In this document: piece by piece, positions 23,939-41,427 of the stretch | How positions within the stretch are numbered: position 1 is the first letter of the stretch | Layout of the letters: the number at the start of each line of letters is the position of its first letter | From: Cytobacillus oceanisediminis | Lineage (GTDB): Bacteria > Bacillota > Bacilli > Bacillales > Cytobacillaceae | NCBI RefSeq assembly: GCF_004366035.1 | Contig: NZ_SOEE01000008.1 | Span: 133,989 to 197,988, forward strand | Length of the DNA stretch: 64,000 bases | Direction of reading: 5' to 3' | The notes under the pieces: model-generated | The model's input: only the letters and a program-made list of their open reading frames with translations | Told to the model about the DNA's origin: nothing | Database searches by the model: none | Translations under genes and position numbers: made by a program

Positions 23939-25402
23939 TTAAATAACCTTCTTGCCTTTTGAATTGCTTTCTTTCACTTTCTCCTCCCAAAAATCAGCAC
24001 CTTTAATGCCAAGTTTAACAGGATCGAAGACTGGTTCAATGCCCGCTTTCTTCTGTTCTTCATAATCTTTAAACACTTTTAAGGCTGTTTTAGTCAGGAA
24101 TAGAATAGCGACTAAGTTAAGCCAGGCCATACTTCCGAAGCCAAAGTCTCCGAGCGCCCATAATAGGGATGCATTTTCGACACTTCCTAAATAGATCATT
24201 CCCAAGAAAACAATCATTAAGCCTGTTTTTAGCCCTTTTAGATTTCTCTTTCTGCCAAGGTAAACGAGGGTTGTTTCAGAAATATAGTAGTAAGCCATCA
24301 GAGTTGTGAAGGCAAAGAAGAAGATAGCAATTGCAACAAACAAACCGCCAAACCCAGGGATAACGCTCTCAACGGCCGCCTGTGTCCACATTGGTCCAGC
24401 TTCTACACCTTGGATGTTTTCAACAATCGGCTGCTTTCCTTCTGGCGTAACGCTATACATGCCGGTAATTAGAATCATAAGTGCAGTAGCTGTACAAACA
24501 ATGATGGTATCAATATAAACTGAGAATCCTTGAACAAGACCTTGTTTTGCCGGATGGGATACATCTGCTGCGGCTGAACTATAAGTTCCTTCCCCTACAC
24601 CAGCAACGTTAGAGAATACTGCTCTCTTAACGCCCCATGCAATCGCTGCACCGAAAATACCGCCAAACATTTCGTTTGCACCAAATGCACTTGAAATAAT
24701 CAGCCAAAGCATTGCTGGAATTTCTGCTGCATTTGCAAATAAAAGAACGAAAGTGATAACCACATACCCTAAGGCCATAAAAGGGACAACTTTTTCCGCA
24801 ACAGTAGCAATTCGCTTAACGCCGCCAAAAATAATGATGCCAAGTAATACAACAAGAATGATTCCAGTGATGCTTTTATGGAGACCAATTGTATTTTCGA
24901 AACCAACAGCAATCGTATTGGCCTGAATCCCAGGTACTAAGATTCCGTAGCAGAGGGTAACAACAATCGCAACAAACACCGCAAACCATTTCATATTTAA
25001 ACCTTTTTCAATAAAATAAGGTGTTCCACCCCGGTACTGCTTACCATCTTTTACTTTATAAACCTGAGCAAGAGTGGATTCAATAAAGGCACTTGCTCCT
25101 CCTAATAAGGCCATGACCCACATCCAGAAAACCGCTCCCGGACCGCCAAATGCAATCGCAGTAGCAACCCCAGCTATATTTCCAATACCGACCCGGCCGG
25201 CTAAAGCCATTGAAAACGCCTGGAAAGAGGACACACCCGACTCTGGGTTACCCTTTTCTAAAAGAAGCTTAATCATTTCCTTGAAATATCTAAATTGCAC
25301 AAAACGTGTCATAATAGAAAAAAACAATCCAGCGCCAAGCGCGAACGCTACCAGTCCAAGACTCCAAACCATCCCCGACGCTTTATTCACTAATTCTTCC
25401 AT
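23939..25402 (-). CDS. sodium:alanine symporter family (AGCS) transporter
   Basis: 487-residue polytopic membrane protein with about ten or eleven helices. AGCS hallmarks: FQAFSMALAGRVGIGNIAGVATAIAFGGPGAVFWMWVMALLG near residue 65, GVKRAVFSNVAGVGEGTYSSAAAD in the middle, and TLMAYYYISETTLVYLGRKR. Members import small neutral amino acids with sodium or protons. Its place at the end of the hydroxyproline-type operon suggests it brings in hydroxyproline or proline (inference). AGGAGG precedes the ATG at 25402; an upstream in-frame start is discarded. C-terminal tail is lysine-rich and cytoplasmic. Confidence 0.9.
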   Translation of the reverse strand: MEELVNKASGMVWSLGLVAFALGAGLFFSIMTRFVQFRYFKEMIKLLLEKGNPESGVSSFQAFSMALAGRVGIGNIAGVATAIAFGGPGAVFWMWVMALLGGASAFIESTLAQVYKVKDGKQYRGGTPYFIEKGLNMKWFAVFVAIVVTLCYGILVPGIQANTIAVGFENTIGLHKSITGIILVVLLGIIIFGGVKRIATVAEKVVPFMALGYVVITFVLLFANAAEIPAMLWLIISSAFGANEMFGGIFGAAIAWGVKRAVFSNVAGVGEGTYSSAAADVSHPAKQGLVQGFSVYIDTIIVCTATALMILITGMYSVTPEGKQPIVENIQGVEAGPMWTQAAVESVIPGFGGLFVAIAIFFFAFTTLMAYYYISETTLVYLGRKRNLKGLKTGLMIVFLGMIYLGSVENASLLWALGDFGFGSMAWLNLVAILFLTKTALKVFKDYEEQKKAGIEPVFDPVKLGIKGADFWEEKVKESNSKGKKVI

Positions 25403-25558
25403 CTTATTCCTCCTATTCAAACCTAAGTAGTTAGTTCCTTTTTATTTGTAATATTAATAATTTTCAGACATACAAGAGTATAAATGGGACAATGGAACAA
25501 AACGCTGCCCCACTCCCATCCAATTACACAGGATTGATTGTCCAATTGTTCCTTATAA

Positions 25559-27055
25559 TTACTCACCATGCCTGATGTTAACAAATACACTTTTCACTTC
25601 CGTATAATTTTGCAGGCCATATTCTCCGCCCATTTCGCGGCCAATTCCTGATTGTTTGTAGCCGCCGAAAGGCATAGTTTCCCATTCAAGACCAAAATCA
25701 TTAATCCAGACTGTACCTGATTGCATCTTGCTTGCAATATAATGTCCCTTTTTCATATTTTCTGTCCAGATACTTGCAGCTAAGCCATAGTCACTATCGT
25801 TCGCCCGTTTAATGACCTCTTCAATCGTATCGAAAACGAAAATGGACATGACTGGTCCAAAGATTTCTTCACGCGCAATAACCATATGATCTTGTACATC
25901 AGCAAAAATGGTTGGCTGTACAAAATATCCTTTTTCAAATCCTTTTTCACCCCCTGCCACGAGGCGCGCACCTTCTTTCTTCCCATGTTGAATATAATTA
26001 AGAACAGTTTGATGCTGTTTTGCTGAAACAAGCGGGCCCATTTCCGTTTCGGGGTTCATTCCATCACCTAACTTCAATGCTTTCGCCCGTTCCGCTAAGG
26101 CTTTTACTACATGATCATAGATGTTTCTTTGTACAAATACACGTGTACAGGCACTACAGTTTTGCCCATGATTGTACATCGTTCCGTTAAATACCCCTTC
26201 AATTGCTTCCTCAAGATTAGCATCCTCTAAAACAATGGCTGGAGATTTTCCGCCAAGCTCCAGCGTAACATCTTTAATTTGATCTGCAGCTTTTTTCATT
26301 ACTTCTTTCCCGACAGCAGTTGATCCTGTGAATGCTACCTTATCGATATCTTTATGTGCAGTGATTGCTTCTCCCGCAATCCTTCCCGTTCCTGGCACAA
26401 TATTTACAACACCATCCGGGAACCCGGCTTCTTTGAATAGCCTTCCTGCGTAAAGAAGAGATAATGGTGTTTCAGTTGCCGGCTTAATCACAACCGTACA
26501 GCCGACTGCAAGTGCAGATCCGAGCTTCCAGGCTGCCATGGCAAGCGGGAAGTTCCAAGGAATAATTTGGCCTGCTACCCCAACCGGCTCGTGTACTGTA
26601 TAGGTTACATAATTCTTTGAAACCTGAGTTGTCATGCCAATTATTTTCGTGGCCCAGCCCGCATAATATCTAAAATGCTGGATTGTTCCGTCGATATCAT
26701 CTGCCAAGGCTACCTTGTAAGGCTTTCCGTTATCCAATGATTCCAGTTGTGCAAGTTCCTCTCGATTTTCTTCTAAGAGATCCGCAAATTTATAGATTAG
26801 ATGGGAGCGTTCTGCGGCATCCATTTTTGTCCATTCGCCTTCATCAAATGCCTTTCTTGCAGCAGCTACCGCAGCATTAATATCTTCCTCTTGCGCTTCA
26901 CTTACTTTTGCAATCACCTCTTCGTTTGCAGGATTAACAACGGAAAATGTTTTGCCGCTGATTGCCGGTACATAGTTACCGTTAATGTATAATCCTTTCA
27001 CACCCTCCAAGAATTCTTGAACTTTCGGTTTTAAATTGTAATTTGTTGCTTGCAT
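25559..27055 (-). CDS. aldehyde dehydrogenase, likely 2-oxoglutarate semialdehyde dehydrogenase
   Basis: 498-residue NAD(P)-dependent aldehyde dehydrogenase. Seen: IIPWNFPLAMAAWKLGSALAVGCTVVIKPATETPLS, cofactor motif FTGSTAVGKEV, general base glutamate in LELGGKSP, catalytic cysteine in NHGQNCSACTRVF, and EEIFGPVMSIF. Sequence alone does not fix the substrate; the neighbours (epimerase, dehydrogenase, deaminase) point to 2-oxoglutarate semialdehyde, the last step of hydroxyproline breakdown. ATG 27055 is chosen over an earlier GTG because GAGGAG lies eight bases before it. It follows the deaminase gene by 19 bases. Confidence 0.88.
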   Translation of the reverse strand: MQATNYNLKPKVQEFLEGVKGLYINGNYVPAISGKTFSVVNPANEEVIAKVSEAQEEDINAAVAAARKAFDEGEWTKMDAAERSHLIYKFADLLEENREELAQLESLDNGKPYKVALADDIDGTIQHFRYYAGWATKIIGMTTQVSKNYVTYTVHEPVGVAGQIIPWNFPLAMAAWKLGSALAVGCTVVIKPATETPLSLLYAGRLFKEAGFPDGVVNIVPGTGRIAGEAITAHKDIDKVAFTGSTAVGKEVMKKAADQIKDVTLELGGKSPAIVLEDANLEEAIEGVFNGTMYNHGQNCSACTRVFVQRNIYDHVVKALAERAKALKLGDGMNPETEMGPLVSAKQHQTVLNYIQHGKKEGARLVAGGEKGFEKGYFVQPTIFADVQDHMVIAREEIFGPVMSIFVFDTIEEVIKRANDSDYGLAASIWTENMKKGHYIASKMQSGTVWINDFGLEWETMPFGGYKQSGIGREMGGEYGLQNYTEVKSVFVNIRHGE

Positions 27056-27074
27056 ATTCCCACTCCTCACTATT

Positions 27075-27968
27075 TTAGTTTTTTACTGTCTCTAAACTTG
27101 CAAGCAGGTCTTTTAGCTTTTGATCTTCCTCAGGTGATAGGCCTAAACGAGGATAACGTGCAGGTCCGCCAGCCTGGCCAGTTAATTCCATGGCTCTCTT
27201 CACAATTTGCACATACTTTCCAGATCCTTCAAGAAACGCACACAGTGGTAAAATACGATCATTGATGGACCAAGCTTCTTCAAGCTCACCGTTTTGGAAA
27301 TGGTTATACATGTCTGTAACCAGCTTTGGCACAATATTTCCTGCAACAGAAATCCATCCAGTTGCTCCAACTAAATAAGACTCCATTACAAGCTCTTCAG
27401 CACCGCAGAATACTTCAAAGTCTCCTTTTCCTTTTCTTGCAAGATCCCTTACCTTGCCAATTTCACCGCTTGATTCCTTAATGTGAGTTACATTTTCACA
27501 ATCCTTGCCAATCTGAAGCATTAAATCTGCGCTCATATTAACGCCGGAAGTAAATGGGTTGTTATAAAGCATGATTGGAAGATTAACACTGTCAGATACT
27601 TCTTTGAAATGATGGTAGATTTCATTTTCCTTTGGTTTCATGTAAAAAGGATTAATGATTAGAGCACCATCCGCTCCATGTACTTCAGCTTGCTTTGTAT
27701 ACTCGATTGTTTCCCTTGTTGTTTCAGCAGCAGTACCCACAATAACAGGGATGCGTCCGCCTGCTTCCTTCATAACAGTTTCTACCATCTGGTATTTTTC
27801 TTCTCTTGATAGACTGACAAATTCACCAGTACTCCCATTGATGACAATTCCTGCCACACCTTGATCCACAAAGTAATTGACATTATTCTTTACTCCGCCC
27901 CAATCAATTTCCTGCTCCTGTGTCATCGGTGTAATTAATACTGGATAAGCTCCTCTAATTGTAGTCAT
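27075..27968 (-). CDS. DHDPS-family lyase, likely delta1-pyrroline-4-hydroxy-2-carboxylate deaminase
   Basis: 297-residue class I aldolase-type TIM barrel of the dihydrodipicolinate synthase family. The Schiff-base lysine is in THIKESSG, the tyrosine of the proton relay in MLYNNPF, and GSTGEFVSLSREE is the carboxylate-binding loop. The window's lysine genes are elsewhere, so this is not DapA by context: beside a hydroxyproline epimerase and a D-amino-acid dehydrogenase it matches the deaminase that turns pyrroline-4-hydroxy-2-carboxylate into 2-oxoglutarate semialdehyde (LhpC/HypD-type). GGGGAGG precedes the ATG. Confidence 0.85.
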   Translation of the reverse strand: MTTIRGAYPVLITPMTQEQEIDWGGVKNNVNYFVDQGVAGIVINGSTGEFVSLSREEKYQMVETVMKEAGGRIPVIVGTAAETTRETIEYTKQAEVHGADGALIINPFYMKPKENEIYHHFKEVSDSVNLPIMLYNNPFTSGVNMSADLMLQIGKDCENVTHIKESSGEIGKVRDLARKGKGDFEVFCGAEELVMESYLVGATGWISVAGNIVPKLVTDMYNHFQNGELEEAWSINDRILPLCAFLEGSGKYVQIVKRAMELTGQAGGPARYPRLGLSPEEDQKLKDLLASLETVKN

Positions 27969-27998: not shown

Positions 27999-28952
27999 TT
28001 ATTTTAATAAAAACCCTGCGAATAATGGATCTGCCGGGTCTAATACATATGTCTGCATACCCGTAATAAATCCGCGGGCTGAAAAACTAAACTCGTAACC
28101 GGCTTCAAATTGTGCTGAAAGCCCGGCTGTCAATTTCCCGTTAAAAATGCTCTCATTTTCAATTAGGCTTCCTGCAGATATATCGCCATTTCTTAATAAA
28201 TAGGTAATGCAGGCAGCTAGAGTGCCAAATCCCGGAGAACGTACAATATACCGATCCGGACGGAAGGTTACCGTTTTGATTTTGCCTTCACTTTTTTGCG
28301 AATGATCCATCAAGATTACTCTGCTGAAAGCATGTTTGCCTTCTAAGGCGTCAATCGCCTTTTGCCCCCACTGATTAATGACTGGAAGATCCTCCATCTC
28401 AATCTCAAAAGGCAGCTGCGCTTTATCAAAAATCGCATATTGATGGTCGGCTTGGACCAGGGATACTTCTGCCTTTAAATCTAAATAGGACACTGGCATA
28501 TTGGTTTGTACAACCTGAAATGGCTCGCTTTTTAATTTAACTAATTTCACTTCATCATCTTTCATAGTTGCAGTAACAGCAACAACACCGCTGATTGTTT
28601 CAATTCTGTATTCACCTGAAAATTTGGCCTTTAATTGGCCGCACTCTAACAATGCAGTTATGACAGCAACAATTCCGCCATATTGCATCGATACGGTTCC
28701 GTTATGATCGAAAAAGATGACAGCTGCATCGGCATCGCTTTTAAAAGGCGGAAAAACCAAACAACCCATCAGTCCAGCAAATCCGCGTGGCTCATTTAAA
28801 AGAAGTTTAATTTCCTCCTCATAGGCAAGAAAAATTTGCTCATTCAGCTCCTGTATACTTTGATAATGAATTAATGGTCCATCCTTAACAATACGATAAG
28901 CCTGACCTGCTACATGTACATCGGTTGCTGTATAGGTCTTTTGAATTATCAT
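27999..28952 (-). CDS. proline racemase-like protein lacking both catalytic cysteines
   Basis: 317 residues with the proline racemase fold over its length (LLNEPRGFAGLMG, SLIENESIFNGKLTAG, GFITGMQTYVLDPADPLFAGF) but the active site is gone. Aligned with the neighbour at 28949-29986, its first catalytic Cys91 (PMCGHDTIG) corresponds to Gln90 (SMQYGGIVA), and the second, Cys254 (DRSPCGTG), to Gly241 (VRSPGFG); the acidic Asp250 becomes Val237. It cannot use the two-thiol mechanism of proline racemases or hydroxyproline epimerases, nor the Cys/Thr chemistry of 3-hydroxyproline dehydratases. Its ATG overlaps the stop of the true epimerase by four bases, so the two are made together. A regulatory or structural partner is possible; the reading frame is intact and shows no decay. 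Confidence 0.82.
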   Translation of the reverse strand: MIIQKTYTATDVHVAGQAYRIVKDGPLIHYQSIQELNEQIFLAYEEEIKLLLNEPRGFAGLMGCLVFPPFKSDADAAVIFFDHNGTVSMQYGGIVAVITALLECGQLKAKFSGEYRIETISGVVAVTATMKDDEVKLVKLKSEPFQVVQTNMPVSYLDLKAEVSLVQADHQYAIFDKAQLPFEIEMEDLPVINQWGQKAIDALEGKHAFSRVILMDHSQKSEGKIKTVTFRPDRYIVRSPGFGTLAACITYLLRNGDISAGSLIENESIFNGKLTAGLSAQFEAGYEFSFSARGFITGMQTYVLDPADPLFAGFLLK

Positions 28953-29986
28953 TTCACATCCTCCATTTCATGTTCCATTGGGGGAATAAGCAAGAAGCCT
29001 TCTTTAAGCGGATCTTCCTCGTTATAAAAGAACCGGTGCATACCCATTAGCCATGCAGAACCAGTGATTCTTGTAATAACAGCCTCCACACCCTGGACAT
29101 CTGCTGTTTCAAGGACTTGTCCGCGGAATAAAGAGCCGACAATACTCTCATGTACAAATTCTTCATTGATACCTATCTCCTTTTTGGCATAGAGGACAGA
29201 TAATTTGGCCGATGTACCTGTACCGCATGGTGAACGATCTATCCCGCCTGGAGGGACAACAACTGTATTTTTCACATCTGCTTCTTCATGGGTCGGCACA
29301 GTAAAAAACTCAATATGGGTCAAACCGCGAATAAATGGATATTGGGGATGAACGACCTCTGTTTTTTCGTTAATCGTATTTCTAATTTTGATTGCTTTTT
29401 CAATGATTTCTGAGGCATTCTCCGGTTTCAGTTCTAATCCAGCAGATTGGGCATCAATAATTCCATAGAAATTGCCGCCATAAGCAATATCTGCATCAAT
29501 GATTCCAATTCCCTCAACCTCTACAGAGACACTTTTTAACAGAAATGCTGGGACATTACAGAAGGAAACCTCTTTTGCTTTGCCGTTCTCTACCTTAATC
29601 TCAGCCATAACAAGGCCTGCTGGTGTATCAATTTTGATTGAAGTAACTGGCTCTTGAACAGGGAATAGCCCCGCTTCAACTAATGCTGTACACACCCCGA
29701 TTGTGTCATGACCGCACATTGGCAAATATCCGCCGGTTTCGATATATATAACACCGATATCTGCTTCCGGATGGCATGGATCTGTTAAAAGTACTCCTGA
29801 CATTACATCATGCCCTCTTGGTTCATTCATCAGGAGCTTACGAACCCAATCATATTCCTTTTGCATATGAAGCATTTTTTCGGCCATTGTCGCTCCTTTT
29901 AGTACCGGGAGTCCGCTAATCAATGTCCTTGTCGGATTTCCGCCCGTGTGTGTATCAATGGTTGTAAAAACTCGATTGGCTTTCAT
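28949..29986 (-). CDS. proline racemase-family epimerase, likely 4-hydroxyproline 2-epimerase
   Basis: 345-residue, cofactor-free PLP-independent epimerase. Both catalytic cysteines are present: Cys91 in GYLPMCGHDTIG and Cys254 in GGIDRSPCGTGTSA, with Asp250 kept. Two-base proton exchange at C2 converts trans-4-hydroxy-L-proline to cis-4-hydroxy-D-proline, which the neighbouring dehydrogenase could oxidise. Proline racemase activity cannot be excluded from sequence. The start overlaps the stop of the FAD enzyme upstream by one base (TGATG), and its own stop overlaps the racemase-like gene. The context of deaminase and semialdehyde dehydrogenase supports hydroxyproline. Confidence 0.88.
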   Translation of the reverse strand: MKANRVFTTIDTHTGGNPTRTLISGLPVLKGATMAEKMLHMQKEYDWVRKLLMNEPRGHDVMSGVLLTDPCHPEADIGVIYIETGGYLPMCGHDTIGVCTALVEAGLFPVQEPVTSIKIDTPAGLVMAEIKVENGKAKEVSFCNVPAFLLKSVSVEVEGIGIIDADIAYGGNFYGIIDAQSAGLELKPENASEIIEKAIKIRNTINEKTEVVHPQYPFIRGLTHIEFFTVPTHEEADVKNTVVVPPGGIDRSPCGTGTSAKLSVLYAKKEIGINEEFVHESIVGSLFRGQVLETADVQGVEAVITRITGSAWLMGMHRFFYNEEDPLKEGFLLIPPMEHEMEDVK

Positions 29987-31161
29987 CAGGTTCCCACCCT
30001 TTCCTTAAATCGAGAATATCTCAGCGGTTCAATTGGAATGCAAGTATCCTTCTCATTAAGCATTTCCTCTATCACTTTTCCAGTGACAGCGGCAAGACTA
30101 ATTCCGTCTCCCTCATGACCGGCTGCAATATAATAGTTAGGAATTCCTTCCACTTCTGACACAATTGGCAAGTGATCCTCCGTCCAGGGCCGCAAACCAG
30201 CATAGGAACGTATGACCATCATGTCAGCCATTCTCGGATAAAATCTAATGGCCCGATTGGCAATGCATTTAATAATTTCATTATTAATCTTTGTATTAAA
30301 TCCAACAAATTCACGGCTGCTTCCAATCAGGAAGTTTTGACTTTCAGTTGGTTCAAAAACAAGGGCTACTCCGTATTTTTCAGTAATCGGATCAACCTGG
30401 CGCTTGCCGCCAAATTTTGATATTAAGTAGCCAAACTCCATCACTTTTCTCGGCCCTACAAAGTCCTGGCGTGAAGCGACAATAATGTGGCCTTTTCTTG
30501 GTTTAATCGGGATGGACAAGTCCAGCATTTCACCAATATATGGAGCCCATACACCTGCCGCATTAATGACATAGTCAGCGGTGAAAGTCCCATTGGATGT
30601 TTCAACGATAAATGCACCGTCCGTCTTCCTTCTCATTCCAGTAACCTCAGTTTGTTTATGGGCTTTAGCGCCCATCTCCTTTGCCCCCTCAAGAAGGTTA
30701 AAGGCAAGAAGATATGGATTAACTGTTGAATCTGTTGCACACTCTAAGCCGCCCAATAAATCATCAGCAAAATATTTGGAATCCTGGCGAATGTCCTGTC
30801 TGTCCAGCATCCTGAACGGCAAGCCGGCCTCCCTCTGCCGGTCAACCCATTTTTGTGCGGCTTCCATTTCTTCTTCTGTCTCGCAGACAAGGATGCTTCC
30901 AGGAGCACGATATTCAAAAGGCTGTTTCAATTCTCTGCTTAATTCATCTACTAATTTCTGACTGACAAGTGACATTTGACTATCGAAGCCAGGATCTTTA
31001 TCAATAGCTAAAATATTTCCGTCACAGCGGGATGACGTGCCACTGACAAATTCACCTTTTTCAATAACTGTTACATTTCTTCCAGATTTAGAAGTATAAT
31101 AGGCAATTGCACAGCCTATGATTCCCCCGCCTATAACCAAAACGTCACAATGATATCTCAC
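29986..31161 (-). CDS. FAD-dependent D-amino-acid dehydrogenase subunit (DAO family, HcnC/LhpB-like)
   Basis: 391 residues. The dinucleotide-binding motif VLVIGGGIIGCAIAYYTSKSG followed by VIEKG opens the protein; ATDSTVNPYLLAFNLLEGA and the C-terminal HLPIVSEVEGIPNYYIAAGHEGDGISLAAVTGKVI are typical of the DadA/glycine-oxidase family. In multi-subunit D-amino-acid dehydrogenases this is the catalytic beta subunit; its partners (BFD, 2Fe-2S and second FAD subunits) are encoded at 33064-34899 on the other strand. GTG start at 31161 with AAGGGAAG before it. First gene of the minus-strand operon behind a sigma-54 promoter. Expected substrate: cis-4-hydroxy-D-proline (inference). Confidence 0.86.
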   Translation of the reverse strand: MRYHCDVLVIGGGIIGCAIAYYTSKSGRNVTVIEKGEFVSGTSSRCDGNILAIDKDPGFDSQMSLVSQKLVDELSRELKQPFEYRAPGSILVCETEEEMEAAQKWVDRQREAGLPFRMLDRQDIRQDSKYFADDLLGGLECATDSTVNPYLLAFNLLEGAKEMGAKAHKQTEVTGMRRKTDGAFIVETSNGTFTADYVINAAGVWAPYIGEMLDLSIPIKPRKGHIIVASRQDFVGPRKVMEFGYLISKFGGKRQVDPITEKYGVALVFEPTESQNFLIGSSREFVGFNTKINNEIIKCIANRAIRFYPRMADMMVIRSYAGLRPWTEDHLPIVSEVEGIPNYYIAAGHEGDGISLAAVTGKVIEEMLNEKDTCIPIEPLRYSRFKERVGT

Positions 31162-31201: not shown

Positions 31202-31217
31202 TGCAATTAACATGCCA
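31202..31217 (-). promoter_or_regulatory. sigma-54 promoter of the catabolic operon
   Basis: Minus strand TGGCATGTTAATTGCA: -24 element TGGCAT, five bases, -12 element TTGCA. It fits the consensus TGGCAC-N5-TTGCA closely. Start near 31190, about 30 bases before the GTG of the FAD gene. Confidence 0.88.
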
Positions 31218-31300: not shown

Positions 31301-31376
31301 ATTGTCAAAAAATTTGATAAAATTGTGTATAAAATATTAAACAGTGTATAAAAAAATTTACATTCAGGAGGCTGTC

Positions 31377-32987
31377 ATGTTTGAATTACCGTCAGTCAAA
31401 GAAATAATTGAAAGTAATTTAATCTGTCTGAACCAAGTTAATAAGAGCACTTTATCAAGGGTTTATTGGGATGATTCTTTTGCTGCATTAGCTGATGCCT
31501 GCAAGCGCTATGCAGCCGTTGCCGTTGTAAATTCAAGCGGCGAAGTACTTGGCTGCATTACAAATGAACAAATCATTGATTTTTTGCATGATTCCTACAA
31601 TCAATTAAAGGCTTTCTATGAAGCTGTCATCAAAACATCGGATGCTTCAGTCACAGTGATTGATGCTGATGAACGTGTCCGCACATGGACAGAGGGAGCT
31701 GAAAAAATTTTCTCTGTCAAAAAAGATGAGATTGTGGGCAAACCAATTATAGAATTCTTTGAACATCAGAATCTGCAAATATTAGAATCCTTGTACAAAG
31801 GAAAAAGAATCCGGGGAAAGCATCACCAGCCAAGATCTGATCTATTTGTCCTAATAAATTCAAACCCTGTTTACTTTAATGGACGCATTATCGGTGCAGT
31901 TGTATCGGAAACTGATGTGACAAGCCAGGTAGTTCTTAATGAAAAATTATTTAATATGTCGACTGAGGTTCACCGTTTAGAACAGGAGATGGCGAAATAC
32001 AGACCTTCAGACCCCTTTAGATACATTAAAGGGAAAAGCGCTGTAATGGAAAAGACAGTGCAAATGGCGAAAAAGGTGTGCTCTGTCCGATCAACTGTAT
32101 TGATCTTAGGAGAAAGCGGAGTCGGCAAGGAGGTCTTTGCCAAATCCATTCATGAGGCAACTGAAGGATCTGAAGCACCCTTTATTTCAATTAACTGCGG
32201 GGCTATTCCAGCTTCATTATTCGAAAGCGAATTATTTGGCTATGAACGCGGAGCCTTTTCCGGTGCAGACCATAGAGGAAAAAAAGGAAAAATTGGGCTT
32301 GCTAAAGGGGGCACTCTTTTTCTGGATGAAATTGGCGAAATGCCTTTAGAAATGCAGGTCAAGATGCTTCGTGTGCTTCAAGAAAGAAAATATTACAAGG
32401 TTGGCGGTGAAAAAGAAATTGAGGCTGATTTCCGGGTAATTGCTGCAACAAATAGGGATTTAAAAGAATTAATAAAAGAAGGCCAATTCCGGGAGGATTT
32501 ATATTATCGGCTAAATGTTGTCAGTTTAAAAATTCCTCCTTTAAAAGAACGCTGTGAGGATATCGTTGAACTAATTCATTACTTTTTAAATGATTTTTCA
32601 CTTCGCTATCAGCGGCCGATCCATCATTTTTCACAGGAAGTTATGCAAGAGATGCTTCAATATGATTGGCCGGGCAATGTTCGGGAACTTCGTAATGTCG
32701 TTGAACGTCTGGTTGTTTTTGCAACAGATGGAGTCATTCGAAAAGAATATTTGCCATTTCACTCAGTAATGAGCTATTCACCTGCATCTGACACGGACCT
32801 TCCGGAAAATAACATAGAAATGAAAACGGCCATTGTGCCACTTCAGGAGGAAATGGATCAGCACGAAAAGAAGGTGCTCGAAAAAGCATTGGCATTAACT
32901 AAAGGCAACAAATTAGAATGCTCGAGAAAACTGGGAATCACCCGAGCGACCCTTTACAATCGTTTAAAACGTCTTGGCTTAAGCTGA
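31377..32987 (+). CDS. sigma-54-dependent activator with CBS-like and PAS domains
   Basis: 536-residue enhancer-binding protein. Order: an N-terminal CBS-like region (about 15-80), a PAS domain (about 85-200, FYEAVIKTSDASVTVIDADERVRTWTEGAEKIF), the AAA+ ATPase (about 222-450) with Walker A GESGVGKE, Walker B GGTLFLDEIGE and the sigma-contact loop GAFSGA, and a C-terminal Fis-type helix-turn-helix (GNKLECSRKLGITRATLYNRLKRLG). The usual loop sequence is GAFTGA; Ser for Thr is a conservative change. AGGAGG fixes the ATG at 31377. Divergent from the catabolic operon and upstream of the dehydrogenase subunits; it probably senses the substrate and activates both sigma-54 promoters. Confidence 0.93.
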   Translation: MFELPSVKEIIESNLICLNQVNKSTLSRVYWDDSFAALADACKRYAAVAVVNSSGEVLGCITNEQIIDFLHDSYNQLKAFYEAVIKTSDASVTVIDADERVRTWTEGAEKIFSVKKDEIVGKPIIEFFEHQNLQILESLYKGKRIRGKHHQPRSDLFVLINSNPVYFNGRIIGAVVSETDVTSQVVLNEKLFNMSTEVHRLEQEMAKYRPSDPFRYIKGKSAVMEKTVQMAKKVCSVRSTVLILGESGVGKEVFAKSIHEATEGSEAPFISINCGAIPASLFESELFGYERGAFSGADHRGKKGKIGLAKGGTLFLDEIGEMPLEMQVKMLRVLQERKYYKVGGEKEIEADFRVIAATNRDLKELIKEGQFREDLYYRLNVVSLKIPPLKERCEDIVELIHYFLNDFSLRYQRPIHHFSQEVMQEMLQYDWPGNVRELRNVVERLVVFATDGVIRKEYLPFHSVMSYSPASDTDLPENNIEMKTAIVPLQEEMDQHEKKVLEKALALTKGNKLECSRKLGITRATLYNRLKRLGLS

Positions 32988-33009: not shown

Positions 33010-33025
33010 TGGTACGATTTTTGCA
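33010..33025 (+). promoter_or_regulatory. sigma-54 promoter of the dehydrogenase-subunit operon
   Basis: TGGTACGATTTTTGCA: -24 element TGGTAC, five bases, -12 element TTGCA. It lies 22 bases after the activator's stop codon and 39 before the first gene. Confidence 0.87.
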
Positions 33026-33063: not shown

Positions 33064-33339
33064 ATGAATAACAATGAGGCCCTTGTGATCTGCCGTTGTG
33101 AAGAGGTTACCTATGGGCAGGTTTTTGCAACAGCCAAAGAACATCAATGTACATCCAGGGAGCTGAAGCTTAGAACAAGAGCTGGAATGGGGTTTTGTGG
33201 AGGACGCACTTGCAGGGTCATGGTCGATCGGATTATTGAAAGTATCGTACCTAATACAGGAGAAGGTGAAATTCCTTTAAAATATCAGCCTCCAATTCGC
33301 CCTATAACTTTTGGAACGGCAGGTGAAAAAAATGACTAG
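33064..33339 (+). CDS. BFD-like [2Fe-2S] protein, dehydrogenase subunit
   Basis: 91-residue bacterioferritin-associated-ferredoxin-type domain. Four cysteines in the family spacing bind a 2Fe-2S cluster: CRC near residues 10-12 (VICRCEEVTYGQV) and C-x4-C near 46-51 (GFCGGRTCR). In Pseudomonas HcnB/LhpE-type enzymes this domain is fused to the end of the alpha subunit; here it stands alone. AGAGGAGG precedes the ATG, and its stop overlaps the next gene by eight bases. Predicted role: electron relay between the two FAD subunits. Confidence 0.88.
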   Translation: MNNNEALVICRCEEVTYGQVFATAKEHQCTSRELKLRTRAGMGFCGGRTCRVMVDRIIESIVPNTGEGEIPLKYQPPIRPITFGTAGEKND

Positions 33340-33664
33340 AATTATAGATCATCCGGTTTTAGGCAAATTAAATGATAGAAAAAAGATTCCATTCACTTTT
33401 GATGGAAAAGAATATGAAGCATATGAAAATGAAACAATCGCGGCAGCTCTGCTCGCAAACGGAGTGAGGACACTGCGTGTTCATGAGGAAAGTGGAACAC
33501 CAAGAGGGTTTTATTGCAATATCGGCCACTGTATGGAGTGCCGAGTAAATGTTAATGGGCAGTCCAATATAAGAGCCTGTTTAACTCTTGTAAAGGAAAA
33601 TATGGTTGTTGAAAGAGGAAAACAGCATCCTAATATTGTTAAAAGGATGGTGGAGAATCCATGA
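33332..33664 (+). CDS. ferredoxin-like 2Fe-2S subunit (HcnA/LhpF-like)
   Basis: 110-residue plant-type 2Fe-2S domain (Fer2_4 type): FTFDGKEYEAYENETIAAALLANGV followed by the cluster cysteines in YCNIGHCMECRVNVNGQSNIRACL. This is the small gamma subunit of multi-subunit amino-acid dehydrogenases. Start at 33332 rather than the longer frame, as it overlaps the upstream stop in the usual coupled manner and matches family length. Its stop overlaps the next ATG (ATGA). Confidence 0.87.
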   Translation: MTRIIDHPVLGKLNDRKKIPFTFDGKEYEAYENETIAAALLANGVRTLRVHEESGTPRGFYCNIGHCMECRVNVNGQSNIRACLTLVKENMVVERGKQHPNIVKRMVENP

Positions 33665-34899
33665 TAGATGTAATTGTAATTGGAGCTGGACCAGCCGGCT
33701 TAGCTGGTGCCATAACCTGTGCTGAATATGGCTTACAAGTAACCGTTATTGATGAATTTGTCAGGCCAGGCGGAAGATTAATCGGTCAATTGCACCAGGA
33801 ACCGTCTGGAGAATGGTGGAACGGAATAAAAGAATCATCTCGTATGCACAACGAAGCACAGAAACGATCAGTAGATATCCGCTGCGGCGTTTCTGTATAT
33901 AACCTTGAAAAAGATAAGGATTGCTGGAATGTTCATACTAATATAGGAACACTGATAGCTCCTTATGTGCTGGTAGCAACTGGTGCAGCTGAATTCCCAA
34001 TTCCTGTTCCAGGCTGGACTCTTCCAGGTGTAATGTCCATCGGGGCTGCACAGGTCATGACGAATGTTCATCGTGTTGAGGTTGGCAAAAAAGGCATCAT
34101 CATTGGTGCTAACATTTTAGCATTTGCGATTTTAAACGAGCTCCAAATAGCAGGAATTAATGTGGAACATATTGTGCTGCCAGAAAAGAGTCCGCTTAGC
34201 CAAAGTGCCGGAGAACCAGAGGAAGTCCTGAAGTCACTTCTAAATGCTTCCCATCTTGCCCCGTCCCCAATCCTGCGTTTCGGCAGTCGCTTTATGAAAA
34301 ATAAAGGCTTCCGTAAATTAGGAATGAAATTTTATCCTAAAAGAGGCGTTAAGGTGAATGGAACACCATTGCAGCTTAGAAAAGCAGCACTTGAAATTCT
34401 TGGAAAGGATCAGGTAGAAGGCGTACTCACTGCAGAAATTGATGCGAGTGGAAACGTAATCAAAGGTACGGAAAAAATTTACGAAGCAGATTTCGTGTGT
34501 ATCGCAGGTGGCTTGTATCCGTTAGCAGAGCTTACAGCAGTTGCCGGCTGTCCATTCCAATACGTCCCAGAACTTGGGGGACATGTTCCCCTTCATTCTG
34601 AAAAAATGGAAACCCCGCTCGAAGGATTATTTGTTGCCGGGAACATCACCGGCATTGAAAGCGGAAAAATCGCCATGGCCCAAGGAACAACAGCAGGTAT
34701 TTCGATCGCTAAACACGCAGGAAAAGGCAGCACTGACATCAACAAGAAGCTTGATCAGGCATTGAAAAACGTTCATACTGTCCGTCAAAACGCTGCCATC
34801 CAATTCAACCCTGAAATTGCAAACGGCCGGAGGAGAATCTATGAACTTTGGAACGATCTTTATGGGAAAAGGCAGGACTCTTTACAGGAAATTGGATAA
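33661..34899 (+). CDS. FAD/NAD(P)-binding dehydrogenase alpha subunit (HcnB/LhpE-like)
   Basis: 412 residues. N-terminal FAD site VIVIGAGPAGLAGAITCAEYGLQVTVIDE, a second nucleotide-binding motif around GKKGIIIGANILAFAILNEL, and the C-terminal FVAGNITGIESGKIAMAQGTTAGISIA. This is the pyridine-nucleotide-disulfide-type alpha subunit of opine, cyanide-forming and D-hydroxyproline dehydrogenases. It lacks the C-terminal BFD domain of the Pseudomonas homologue, which is instead the separate gene at 33064. Start overlaps the gamma gene by four bases. It converges on hisIE. Confidence 0.88.
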   Translation: MIDVIVIGAGPAGLAGAITCAEYGLQVTVIDEFVRPGGRLIGQLHQEPSGEWWNGIKESSRMHNEAQKRSVDIRCGVSVYNLEKDKDCWNVHTNIGTLIAPYVLVATGAAEFPIPVPGWTLPGVMSIGAAQVMTNVHRVEVGKKGIIIGANILAFAILNELQIAGINVEHIVLPEKSPLSQSAGEPEEVLKSLLNASHLAPSPILRFGSRFMKNKGFRKLGMKFYPKRGVKVNGTPLQLRKAALEILGKDQVEGVLTAEIDASGNVIKGTEKIYEADFVCIAGGLYPLAELTAVAGCPFQYVPELGGHVPLHSEKMETPLEGLFVAGNITGIESGKIAMAQGTTAGISIAKHAGKGSTDINKKLDQALKNVHTVRQNAAIQFNPEIANGRRRIYELWNDLYGKRQDSLQEIG

Positions 34900-39601: not shown

Positions 39602-40246
39602 TTAAGAACGAATTTCTTCTCCAGCTATTACTTCCGTAAGACGTCCAACCAGCTCGCTTATGCGTTCATCCTTCATGCGGTAGCTGACAGGATTGACAAT
39701 CAATCTTGAAGTGATGCCGACGATGGTTTCATATTCAACGAGCCCGTTCTCTTTTAGCGTTCGGCCGGTTGATACGATGTCCACGATCCGGTCTGCTAGC
39801 CCGATCATAGGCGCAAGCTCTATGGATCCGTTCAATTTAATGATTTCCACCTGTTCCCCCTGCTCGCGGAAATACGCTGCCGCAATCTGCGGATACTTTG
39901 TAGCAATTTTAGGAGCAACATCATTCAGCCTGGTATTTGGCAGTCCTGCAACAGCGAGATAGCATGCGCTGATTTTTAAATCAAGAAGCTCATAAACATC
40001 TCGCTCTTCTTCAAGCATTACGTCTTTCCCGGCAATCCCAAGGTCTGCTACACCATGTTCTACATAGGTTGGCACATCCATCGGCTTTGCAAGGATAAAG
40101 CGGAAATTCTCTTCCGGAACATCTATAATCAATTTACGTGAATCATCAAATTCCGGCGGCAATTGAAAGCCTGCCTGGCGGAGCAATTCAGCTGCTTCTT
40201 CAAAAATGCGGCCCTTTGGCATCGCAATCGTTAAAACATCACTCAT
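39602..40246 (-). CDS. hisG: ATP phosphoribosyltransferase, short form catalytic subunit
   Basis: 214 residues, the short HisG type that lacks the C-terminal regulatory domain and needs His[20 protein letters not shown] opens the protein and [14 protein letters not shown] is the PRPP-binding loop. HisZ is the gene immediately upstream with a four-base overlap, which agrees. Confidence 0.97.
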
Positions 40247-41427
40247 TTTATGGTCTCCTTTCCAGCTTTTCCGACTAAAAAGGTAATATCCTCATAGCTG
40301 CTGGTGCAGGCATCGATGTCCTTGACACCGCTAATATCCTGCAGAACCACTTTCTTTCCGGCAGAACGTTCTTTCTTCGCAAAATCGAATGCCTCTTTGC
40401 GGCGTTCCGGGCTGTATAAAACGCAGTACACAGGTTCAGCCGCATTGCTGTCTTCCAGAGCTTCCAGCAGGCGGTCCATTCTGATGGCAAAGCCGGTTGC
40501 TCCCGTATCTTTTCCGAACTTTTGGAGCAGCAAATCATAGCGGCCGCCATTTCCGATCGGGAAACCAACATTTCCTGCATATACTTCAAAAAGAATTCCC
40601 GTGTAGTAGCTCATATGGCTGACGAGCGTTAAATCAAATTTAACTGTGCCTTCCTGGCCGTAGTCCTGCATAATGCCCCAAAGCTGTTCGAGCTCGGCCA
40701 ATGCTTTTTTTCCTGTGCCGTTTTCCAGAAGGCCATAAGCAATCTCAATGACTTCTTCCCCGCCTCTTAATTTTAGGAAATCGAGAAGCCTTTGTTTATC
40801 AATGGATGAAAGAGCCAGGCTCTTTACATGTTCCCTGTACCCGACATAATTTTTCTCATATAAAAATCTTGTCAGGTTTTCCACTCTTTCTTCCGTTCCT
40901 AAAATCTGCTGGAAGAAATCCCGGACAAAGCCGATATGGCCGGCTGAAAGCTGGAAATTCTGAAGCCCAGCTTCTTTTAGAGCAGAGATCATCATCGCCA
41001 TCCCTTCGCCATCCGCACTGATCGTATGGTCACCAATGCATTCAACCCCGATCTGCTCAAATTCAGCCGGCCTGCCGCCCTCCCGCTGCTGAGCGCGGTA
41101 TACATTGGCAGAATAGGCAAGCCTGATCGGCAGATCGTCTTTTAAAAGACGGGATGCAGCCACCCTTGCGATCGGCGCTGTCATATCCGGACGCAGCACA
41201 AGGGTGTGGCCCTGCTGATCAAGCAGCTTGAACAGCTGCTGATCAAGTATTGCTGACGCCGCTCCAACTGTTTCGTAATATTCGAGTGCAGGCGTTTCGA
41301 TAAACTGATAGCCCCAGCGTTTCATTTCCCCCTGGATGGAAGACCGGACTGCTGCCTTTCTTTCATACAAATCAGGTAATGTATCTCTCATGCCTAACGG
41401 CTTTTCAAACATAAATAATCGGCTCAA
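40243..41427 (-). CDS. hisZ: ATP phosphoribosyltransferase regulatory subunit HisZ
   Basis: 394-residue class II histidyl-tRNA synthetase-like protein without synthetase function that makes short HisG active and histidine-sensitive. Motif 2-like [15 protein letters not shown] and [24 protein letters not shown], and the [12 protein letters not shown] motif, are visible. A TTG start at 41427 has GAGGTGAA at good distance; the ATG five codons later has none. First gene of the his operon. Confidence 0.93.

Follow-up and report, generated by a model that had tools for sequence, protein, structure and literature searches.

A racemase-family gene pair in a putative hydroxyproline operon

The window analysed here, a 64,000-nucleotide stretch of the Cytobacillus oceanisediminis genome, contains two adjacent genes of the proline racemase family. 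One encodes an intact Cys/Cys epimerase (EPI), the other a family member which has lost its catalytic residues and is called PSE, for pseudoenzyme. A search of the host genome found EPI and PSE as its only PF05544 proteins. On the minus strand the gene order is DAO-family FAD oxidoreductase, EPI, PSE, DHDPS-family protein, aldehyde dehydrogenase and Na/alanine symporter; the divergent genes encode a sigma-54 activator, a 2Fe-2S protein and a pyridine nucleotide-disulphide oxidoreductase (Table 1).

Table 1. Genes and sites of the EPI/PSE region, in window coordinates
Feature	Position	Strand	Remarks
Sodium:alanine symporter family transporter (AgcS)	23939..25420	-	profile match
Aldehyde dehydrogenase, probable alpha-ketoglutarate semialdehyde dehydrogenase	25559..27070	-	profile match
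DHDPS-family protein, probable hydroxy-pyrroline-carboxylate deaminase	27075..27968	-	profile match
PSE, proline-racemase-family pseudoenzyme	27999..28952	-	317 aa; Q90, G92, V237 and G241 replace Cys, His, Asp and Cys
ATGA stop/start overlap EPI/PSE	28949..28952	-	EPI stop TGA and PSE ATG share 4 bases
EPI, predicted 4-hydroxyproline 2-epimerase, intact Cys/Cys	28949..29986	-	345 aa; function predicted from operon
DAO-family FAD oxidoreductase, probable D-hydroxyproline dehydrogenase subunit	29986..31161	-	listed GTG start, putative
Sigma-54 -24/-12 type site TGGCATGTTAATTGCA	31202..31217	-	exact pattern match; 41 bases upstream of listed DAO start
Sigma-54-dependent activator with PAS domain (PrdR/SoxR-like)	31344..32987	+	profile match
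Sigma-54 -24/-12 type site TGGTACGATTTTTGCA	33010..33025	+	one mismatch; upstream of 2Fe-2S gene
2Fe-2S (Fer2_4) protein, probable dehydrogenase subunit	33311..33664	+	profile match
Pyridine nucleotide-disulphide oxidoreductase family protein, probable dehydrogenase subunit	33661..34899	+	profile match

According to Zhao et al., enzymes of the DAO, DHDPS and aldehyde dehydrogenase families accompany 4-hydroxyproline epimerases (PMC4113996). Judged by the profile matches in the operon and the published pathway, every pathway step appears to have an enzyme here, and from the operon content we infer that EPI acts on 4-hydroxyproline. Matches to the -24/-12 pattern were only mildly more frequent in the window than expected by chance (27 found, 18 expected), so it is the position of the site upstream of the DAO gene, rather than the number of matches, that serves as evidence. 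For the B. thuringiensis sox operon the site is tabled at -41, and TGGTACGATTTTTGCA is comparable to the TTGGCATGATTTTTGCA given for that organism (PMC4428206). A sigma-54 activator frame of at least 500 aa was found in 76 of the 80 named EPI loci, which are the best 80 of 194.

The first-pass annotation of this DNA had described PSE as a clean reading frame whose start overlaps the stop of the active epimerase by four bases. Both statements hold: the minus-strand frame runs uninterrupted through 317 codons from an ATG, and the two genes share the sequence ATGA, which suggests that their translation may be coupled. Among 71 related junctions, for which the start codon nearest to the EPI stop was taken as the presumed start, the exact four-base overlap occurs in 44 and any overlap in 45.

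The catalytic set of EPI is complete (Cys91, His93, Asp250, Cys254). The same four residues recur without exception in the 85 unique EPI sequences scored from loci L052-L151 and the window, and the second Cys is kept in 99% of a larger set of 115 rows. In genome G563 one epimerase copy (L212:4914-6067, minus strand) is split over two overlapping frames and looks broken or mis-assembled.

PSE is a full-length member of the same family. The PF05544 profile covers the whole protein, residues 11-314 aligning with profile positions 3-324 of 325, and scores 116.8 bits against a cut-off of 27. With the NCBIfam enzyme models PSE stayed far below the equivalog cut-off, the best score being 101.1 bits against 376. 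The catalytic pairs known in the family are Cys/Cys, Ser/Cys, Cys/Thr and Ser/Thr, and a His and an Asp hold the proline nitrogen (PMC4113996). In PSE the two-base pair (Cys/Cys or Ser/Cys) is missing, its positions being occupied by Gln90 and Gly241; the nitrogen-holding His and Asp are replaced by Gly92 and Val237. Gln90, Gly241 and Val237 had already been named in the first reading of the sequence, and all three were confirmed by position.

Conservation of the losses, selection and predicted fold

The losses were followed through an alignment of 88 unique PSE sequences, each of at least 286 residues. Both cysteines are absent from all 88 orthologues, but the Gln/Gly pair as such is conserved only in its second half. 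Position 241 is Gly in 87 sequences and Asn in one, whereas position 90 varies (His 27, Lys 27, Gln 23, Asn 3, Leu 2, Ser 2, Ala 2, Arg 1, Met 1). The enzyme His at position 92 is found in none of the orthologues, and position 237, the place of the enzyme Asp, is Val in 55, Leu in 27 and Asp in one, five other residues occurring once each. The sequence with Asp237 (L018, genome G002) still has none of Cys, His and Cys at positions 90, 92 and 241, respectively. The variability of position 90 rules out that Gln90 is a catalytic residue newly gained and conserved, and the residue counts of the 88 orthologues rule out a switch to a dehydratase of the Ser/Thr or Cys/Thr type.

Outside these positions much is retained: Arg20, Glu54, Arg56 and Arg238 in 88/88 orthologues, His13 in 86 and Pro240 in 85. 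When 77 PSE sequences, 18 relatives and 115 EPI sequences were compared, the residues common to all three groups at 95% or more included D11, H13, G16, R20, E54, P55, R56, G57, R238, S239 and P240. At twelve positions PSE is conserved to 90% or more with a residue which is not the commonest one in EPI or in the relatives: V14, A18, L52, F81, H83, Y91, Y115, E118, F230, G241, N266 and F270. Of these, Y115 and N266 are present in all 88 orthologues, H83 and E118 in 86 and Y91 in 83; Y91 and G241 fall within the two lost catalytic motifs. The twelve fixed positions argue that PSE gained a conserved signature of its own, beyond mere release from constraint.

The ratio of nonsynonymous to synonymous change, proposed earlier as a check, was estimated by the Nei-Gojobori method for up to 19 loci, using pairs with dS between 0.1 and 1.2. 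It indicates purifying selection on PSE, with a median dN/dS of 0.222 (32 pairs, range 0.109-0.351). The neighbours gave lower medians, 0.076 for EPI (41 pairs), 0.059 for DAO (35 pairs) and 0.075 for DHDPS (41 pairs), and PSE exceeded EPI in all 27 pairs usable for both.

The claim that the signatures of the family fold are kept agrees with the full-length profile match and with a confident predicted racemase fold. The AlphaFold2 model of PSE had a mean pLDDT of 89.0 and a pTM of 0.88, that of EPI 90.1 and 0.87. In the PSE model two helices, residues 91-103 and 242-254, begin right after the two former catalytic positions. A Foldseek search with the model returned proline racemase superfamily structures as the first 38 of the 50 PDB rows listed, led by 6r76, the family rows having TM values by query of 0.71-0.88. 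DAP epimerases appeared lower in the list, among them the E. coli RppH-DapF complex 6d13, a reminder of the ability of this fold to bind other proteins. In a mirror-tree comparison over 62 loci, which looked for co-evolution specific to EPI, the partial correlation of PSE was 0.29 with EPI but 0.32 with DHDPS.

Linkage to EPI, distribution and origin

In the genus, PSE was found at 45% identity or more in 21 of 36 genomes, and in the family in 42 of 193; EPI directly adjoins it in 42/42. Two weaker matches in the family set, at 28-29% identity in G042 and G131, belong to other members of the protein family and are not counted among the 42. EPI itself was detected at E 1e-120 or better in 43 family genomes, the one genome with EPI and without PSE being G131, in which an intact relative fills the slot. 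In a sample of 398 genomes of the class, PSE (at least 250 bits) was present in seven, that of the window included, and EPI adjoins it in all seven. EPI matches at E 1e-80 or better were found in 44 genomes of this sample, 38 of them at E 2e-120 or better (at least 55% identity). PSE is absent from 31 of these 38, and for 20 of the 38 the wider neighbourhood was examined. No orphan PSE, lacking EPI, was found in the 193 family and 398 class genomes; in some genomes only part of the candidates was scored (e.g. 5 of 13), so an orphan may have been missed. A second class-wide search added no genomes to those already counted.

In 71 of the 80 named EPI loci PSE lies directly downstream of EPI (one of them, L102, is cut by the contig end). 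In two, L142 and L148, an intact second family member takes this place, and in seven (L129, L135, L146, L147, L149, L150, L151) there is no family member directly behind EPI. Among the genomes of these nine loci only that of L142, Bacillus sp. UNC438CL73TsuS30 (G129), has PSE elsewhere: it carries two operons, L109/L065 with the dead partner and L142/L053 with an intact C/H/D/C partner. The Brevibacillus loci L147, L149, L150 and L151 have the DHDPS and aldehyde dehydrogenase genes and no PSE; in these, as in L203 and L204 of the same class, the order DAO-EPI-DHDPS-aldehyde dehydrogenase is followed at the operon end by an intact second proline-racemase-family enzyme. L213 and L214 have DAO, EPI, DHDPS and aldehyde dehydrogenase, with neither PSE nor an intact relative in view. 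Because loci with the pathway genes occur without PSE, the pathway can apparently run without it, and PSE is an accessory which is not required everywhere. The proposed linkage of the orthologous group to the Cys/Cys enzyme thus stood in one direction: every PSE copy in the family and class searches has its EPI, whereas EPI without PSE does occur. Absence from relatives that keep the pathway, named beforehand as an observation which would speak against PSE being maintained, was partly borne out, in 7 of the 80 loci (four of them with DHDPS and aldehyde dehydrogenase) and in the 31 class genomes.

EPI/PSE pairs were also seen on plasmids, in L221 (Priestia megaterium ATCC 14581 pBMV_2) and L222 (Bacillus badius pPM400), and the operon may therefore move between species. 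In the plasmid records examined the PSE-type genes bear the label 'proline racemase family protein', which for PSE is misleading. The B. cereus group is represented neither among the 80 named loci nor among the plasmid records listed (20 of 385 and 40 of 228).

A family tree of 66 rows, with SH-aLRT as its only support measure, placed 35 PSE sequences in one clade (support 100), which is joined with 17 relatives (99). W195, G196 and D233 are among the residues that these relatives share, and 15 of the 17 carry the C/H and D/C motifs. Within the relatives the placement of PSE has support of 91 and below and its stem is long (2.12 changes per column); the tree tool warned that the long branches of L114 and L144 adjoin, and the exact sister of PSE is weakly supported. 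The tree points to a single origin of PSE within a lineage of mostly intact, operon-linked second racemase-family enzymes. Such intact relatives fill the slot directly behind EPI in L052, L053/L142, L148 and L209. In a tree of 98 EPI rows the presence of PSE needs 3 changes, against a mean of 22.5 after shuffling, as one gain with a small number of losses could produce.

The remaining two of the 17 relatives, L215:4197-5237 (minus strand, genome G219) and L216:5847-6887 (plus strand, genome G346), lie directly behind EPI; their cysteines are replaced by Ser and Gly, while His and Asp are kept. These half-dead members form their own branch outside the PSE clade and so possibly represent a second, independent loss. 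In L222 the gene at 3-896, truncated where the locus ends, encodes a C/H/D/C relative of PSE. Its neighbour at 965-1942 is of the ornithine cyclodeaminase family, a hint that the intact group may serve 3-hydroxyproline metabolism.

Possible roles of PSE and comparison with known systems

Catalytic residues lost across the orthologous group, purifying selection and an intact predicted fold make the pseudoenzyme status of PSE well supported. The earlier view, that PSE is maintained as a pseudoenzyme and is not decaying, is upheld by the complete lack of Cys at both sites in 88 orthologues, a dN/dS of about 0.22, the confident fold and the EPI gene beside every PSE copy in the family and class searches. 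As to its role, we favour, by a slight preponderance of belief, that PSE is most likely a non-catalytic partner which stabilises or tunes EPI. The tandem arrangement with one epimerase subtype, the purifying selection, the signature of its own and the lack of an evident missing step in the pathway argue for such an accessory subunit.

PSE would most simply have descended from a once-catalytic second racemase or epimerase linked to the same hydroxyproline operon; the two cysteines, together with the His and the Asp that hold the substrate nitrogen, would have disappeared in one ancestor. We infer that the present protein lacks catalysis altogether and binds EPI, stabilising it or tuning its activity, and its altered pocket perhaps binds a carboxylate metabolite of the pathway as the sensed ligand. 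Since the nitrogen ligands were lost while the two helices were kept, one may speculate that any such ligand has a carboxylate but no secondary amine, e.g. the imine product or a keto acid. The B. cereus-type cluster-4 4HypE proteins, whose epimerase Zhao et al. tie to trans-4-hydroxyproline, proved insoluble and for this reason could not be purified (PMC4113996), as would be expected were a partner missing. Such insolubility has many possible causes, and the cluster-4 enzyme is of the EPI type only as judged by operon content.

A more specific proposal, which we regard as doubtful, is that Bacilli turn the second racemase of an operon into a dead regulatory subunit. 4-Hydroxyproline epimerase would then be a heteromer, and its PSE half, whose altered pocket can no longer accommodate a secondary amine, would respond to the imine or keto acid formed and act as the gate to the pathway. 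If true, it would explain the insolubility of the Bacillus-type epimerase when handled alone, and the catalytic, half-dead and fully dead partners would show this conversion at different stages, or repeated.

The main rival of a non-catalytic partner is new chemistry. PSE would then be an enzyme which has kept the fold and carries out a different reaction, independent of the two thiols, whose substrate might be the cyclic imine product or a related imino acid. The residues conserved specifically in PSE could equally mean this: Y115, N266, H83, E118 and Y91, the last adjoining the lost first Cys, are fixed only in the PSE group, and at position 90 just three residues, His, Lys and Gln, account for 77 of the 88 orthologues. 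Zhao et al. also state that members with differing residues could have new functions and describe active Ser/Cys and Ser/Thr members (PMC4113996). We nevertheless consider it unlikely, because position 90 also accommodates Leu, Ala and Met and is thus hardly catalytic, the nitrogen-holding His and Asp have disappeared too, the pathway appears enzymatically complete, and the searched genomes yielded no PSE without EPI.

PSE might instead act apart from EPI, as a soluble metabolite-binding protein or sensor that buffers the unstable imine or signals to the PAS-containing sigma-54 activator. The two helices kept in the model, together with R238 (88/88), P240 (85/88) and G241 (87/88), fit a binding site of this kind, and the activator frame accompanies most named loci (76/80). 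In the proline racemase family the helix starts at the catalytic positions hold the acid group of the substrate, and a passage in PMC4113996 points the same way. With the linkage of PSE confined to one epimerase subtype and a PAS domain already present in the regulator, we rate a free sensor as rather improbable.

Still weaker is the case for a residual enzyme, performing a weak reaction of the family through other residues. Its predicted fold is kept and R20, E54 and R56 are invariant, with H13 in 86/88, but no member of the group retains either acid/base residue or, the single Asp excepted, a nitrogen ligand, and the score of PSE lies far below the cut-off of every NCBIfam enzyme model matched (at best 101 bits against 376), which leaves little likelihood for it. 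Decay of a functionless duplicate, to which the roughly threefold faster evolution of PSE relative to its operon neighbours and its absence from some relatives might point, deserves almost no credence and is ruled out by a dN/dS of about 0.22 and the breadth of orthologues, dozens of species having an uninterrupted frame; the single origin and the confident predicted fold speak against it too.

Co-expression of both genes is worth trying when a Bacillus 4-hydroxyproline epimerase is to be produced. Many Bacillus-type bacteria seemingly equipped for hydroxyproline breakdown keep PSE directly behind a working epimerase gene. Living relatives in several states (intact, Ser/Gly and fully dead) stand behind one epimerase type, and this gradation makes the change from enzyme to subunit testable.

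Among known systems PSE is closest to the proline racemase superfamily itself (proline racemase, 4-hydroxyproline 2-epimerase, trans-3-hydroxyproline dehydratase), which it resembles in fold and in the full-length profile match; its nearest solved relatives include 6r76 and the T. cruzi proline racemase. It differs from these enzymes in having none of the named catalytic pairs and neither the nitrogen-holding His nor the Asp. Family clusters without one or both cysteines were already noted by Zhao et al. in 2014, who did not decide whether such clusters have new functions; the PSE clade, its slot behind EPI, its origin and its new residues are not identified in the passages of that paper on which we draw (PMC4113996). 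Among the open-licence PMC papers retrieved on the subject, no title or abstract start describes a dead partner of the proline racemase family. A pseudoenzyme of the PSE type is thus apparently undescribed in the literature searched, while dead-paralogue partners as a kind are already known.

The sox operon of B. thuringiensis HD73 (soxB-E-F-G-H-I) is like that of the window in its gene order, with soxF in the slot of PSE, and is sigma-54 dependent. The soxF gene (HD73_3144, 'hypothetical protein') is co-transcribed with its neighbours according to RT-PCR (PMC4941409), and between wild type and sigL mutant soxF differed 32-fold and soxE 35-fold (PMC4428206). Through soxB and soxR mutants the operon has been tied to sarcosine use, for which it is described as needed (PMC4941409, PMC4428206); soxF is likened to PSE by position only.

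The trypanosome AdoMetDC prozyme and the inactive deoxyhypusine synthase paralogue are dead copies that activate an active enzyme (PMC5201418, PMC3663545). As in these reports, a dead paralogue is here paired with an active enzyme, and the genomic coupling of the two was found in all 42 family and all seven class genomes; the enzymes and organisms are different, and a heteromer has been shown for the prozyme systems, whereas here the comparison concerns the genes alone.

The window itself holds another operonic dead-enzyme partner, at 39602-41427 on the minus strand, where HisG and its regulatory subunit HisZ are encoded. HisZ is a dead relative of histidyl-tRNA synthetase which serves as regulatory subunit of HisG (ATP phosphoribosyltransferase). 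Dead paralogues that regulate an active sibling are best known from eukaryotes, and PSE would provide a widespread bacterial case in a well-studied family of cofactor-free racemases. HisZ/HisG and PSE/EPI are alike in being bacterial and operonic, and they differ in that HisZ derives from another enzyme and not from its partner.
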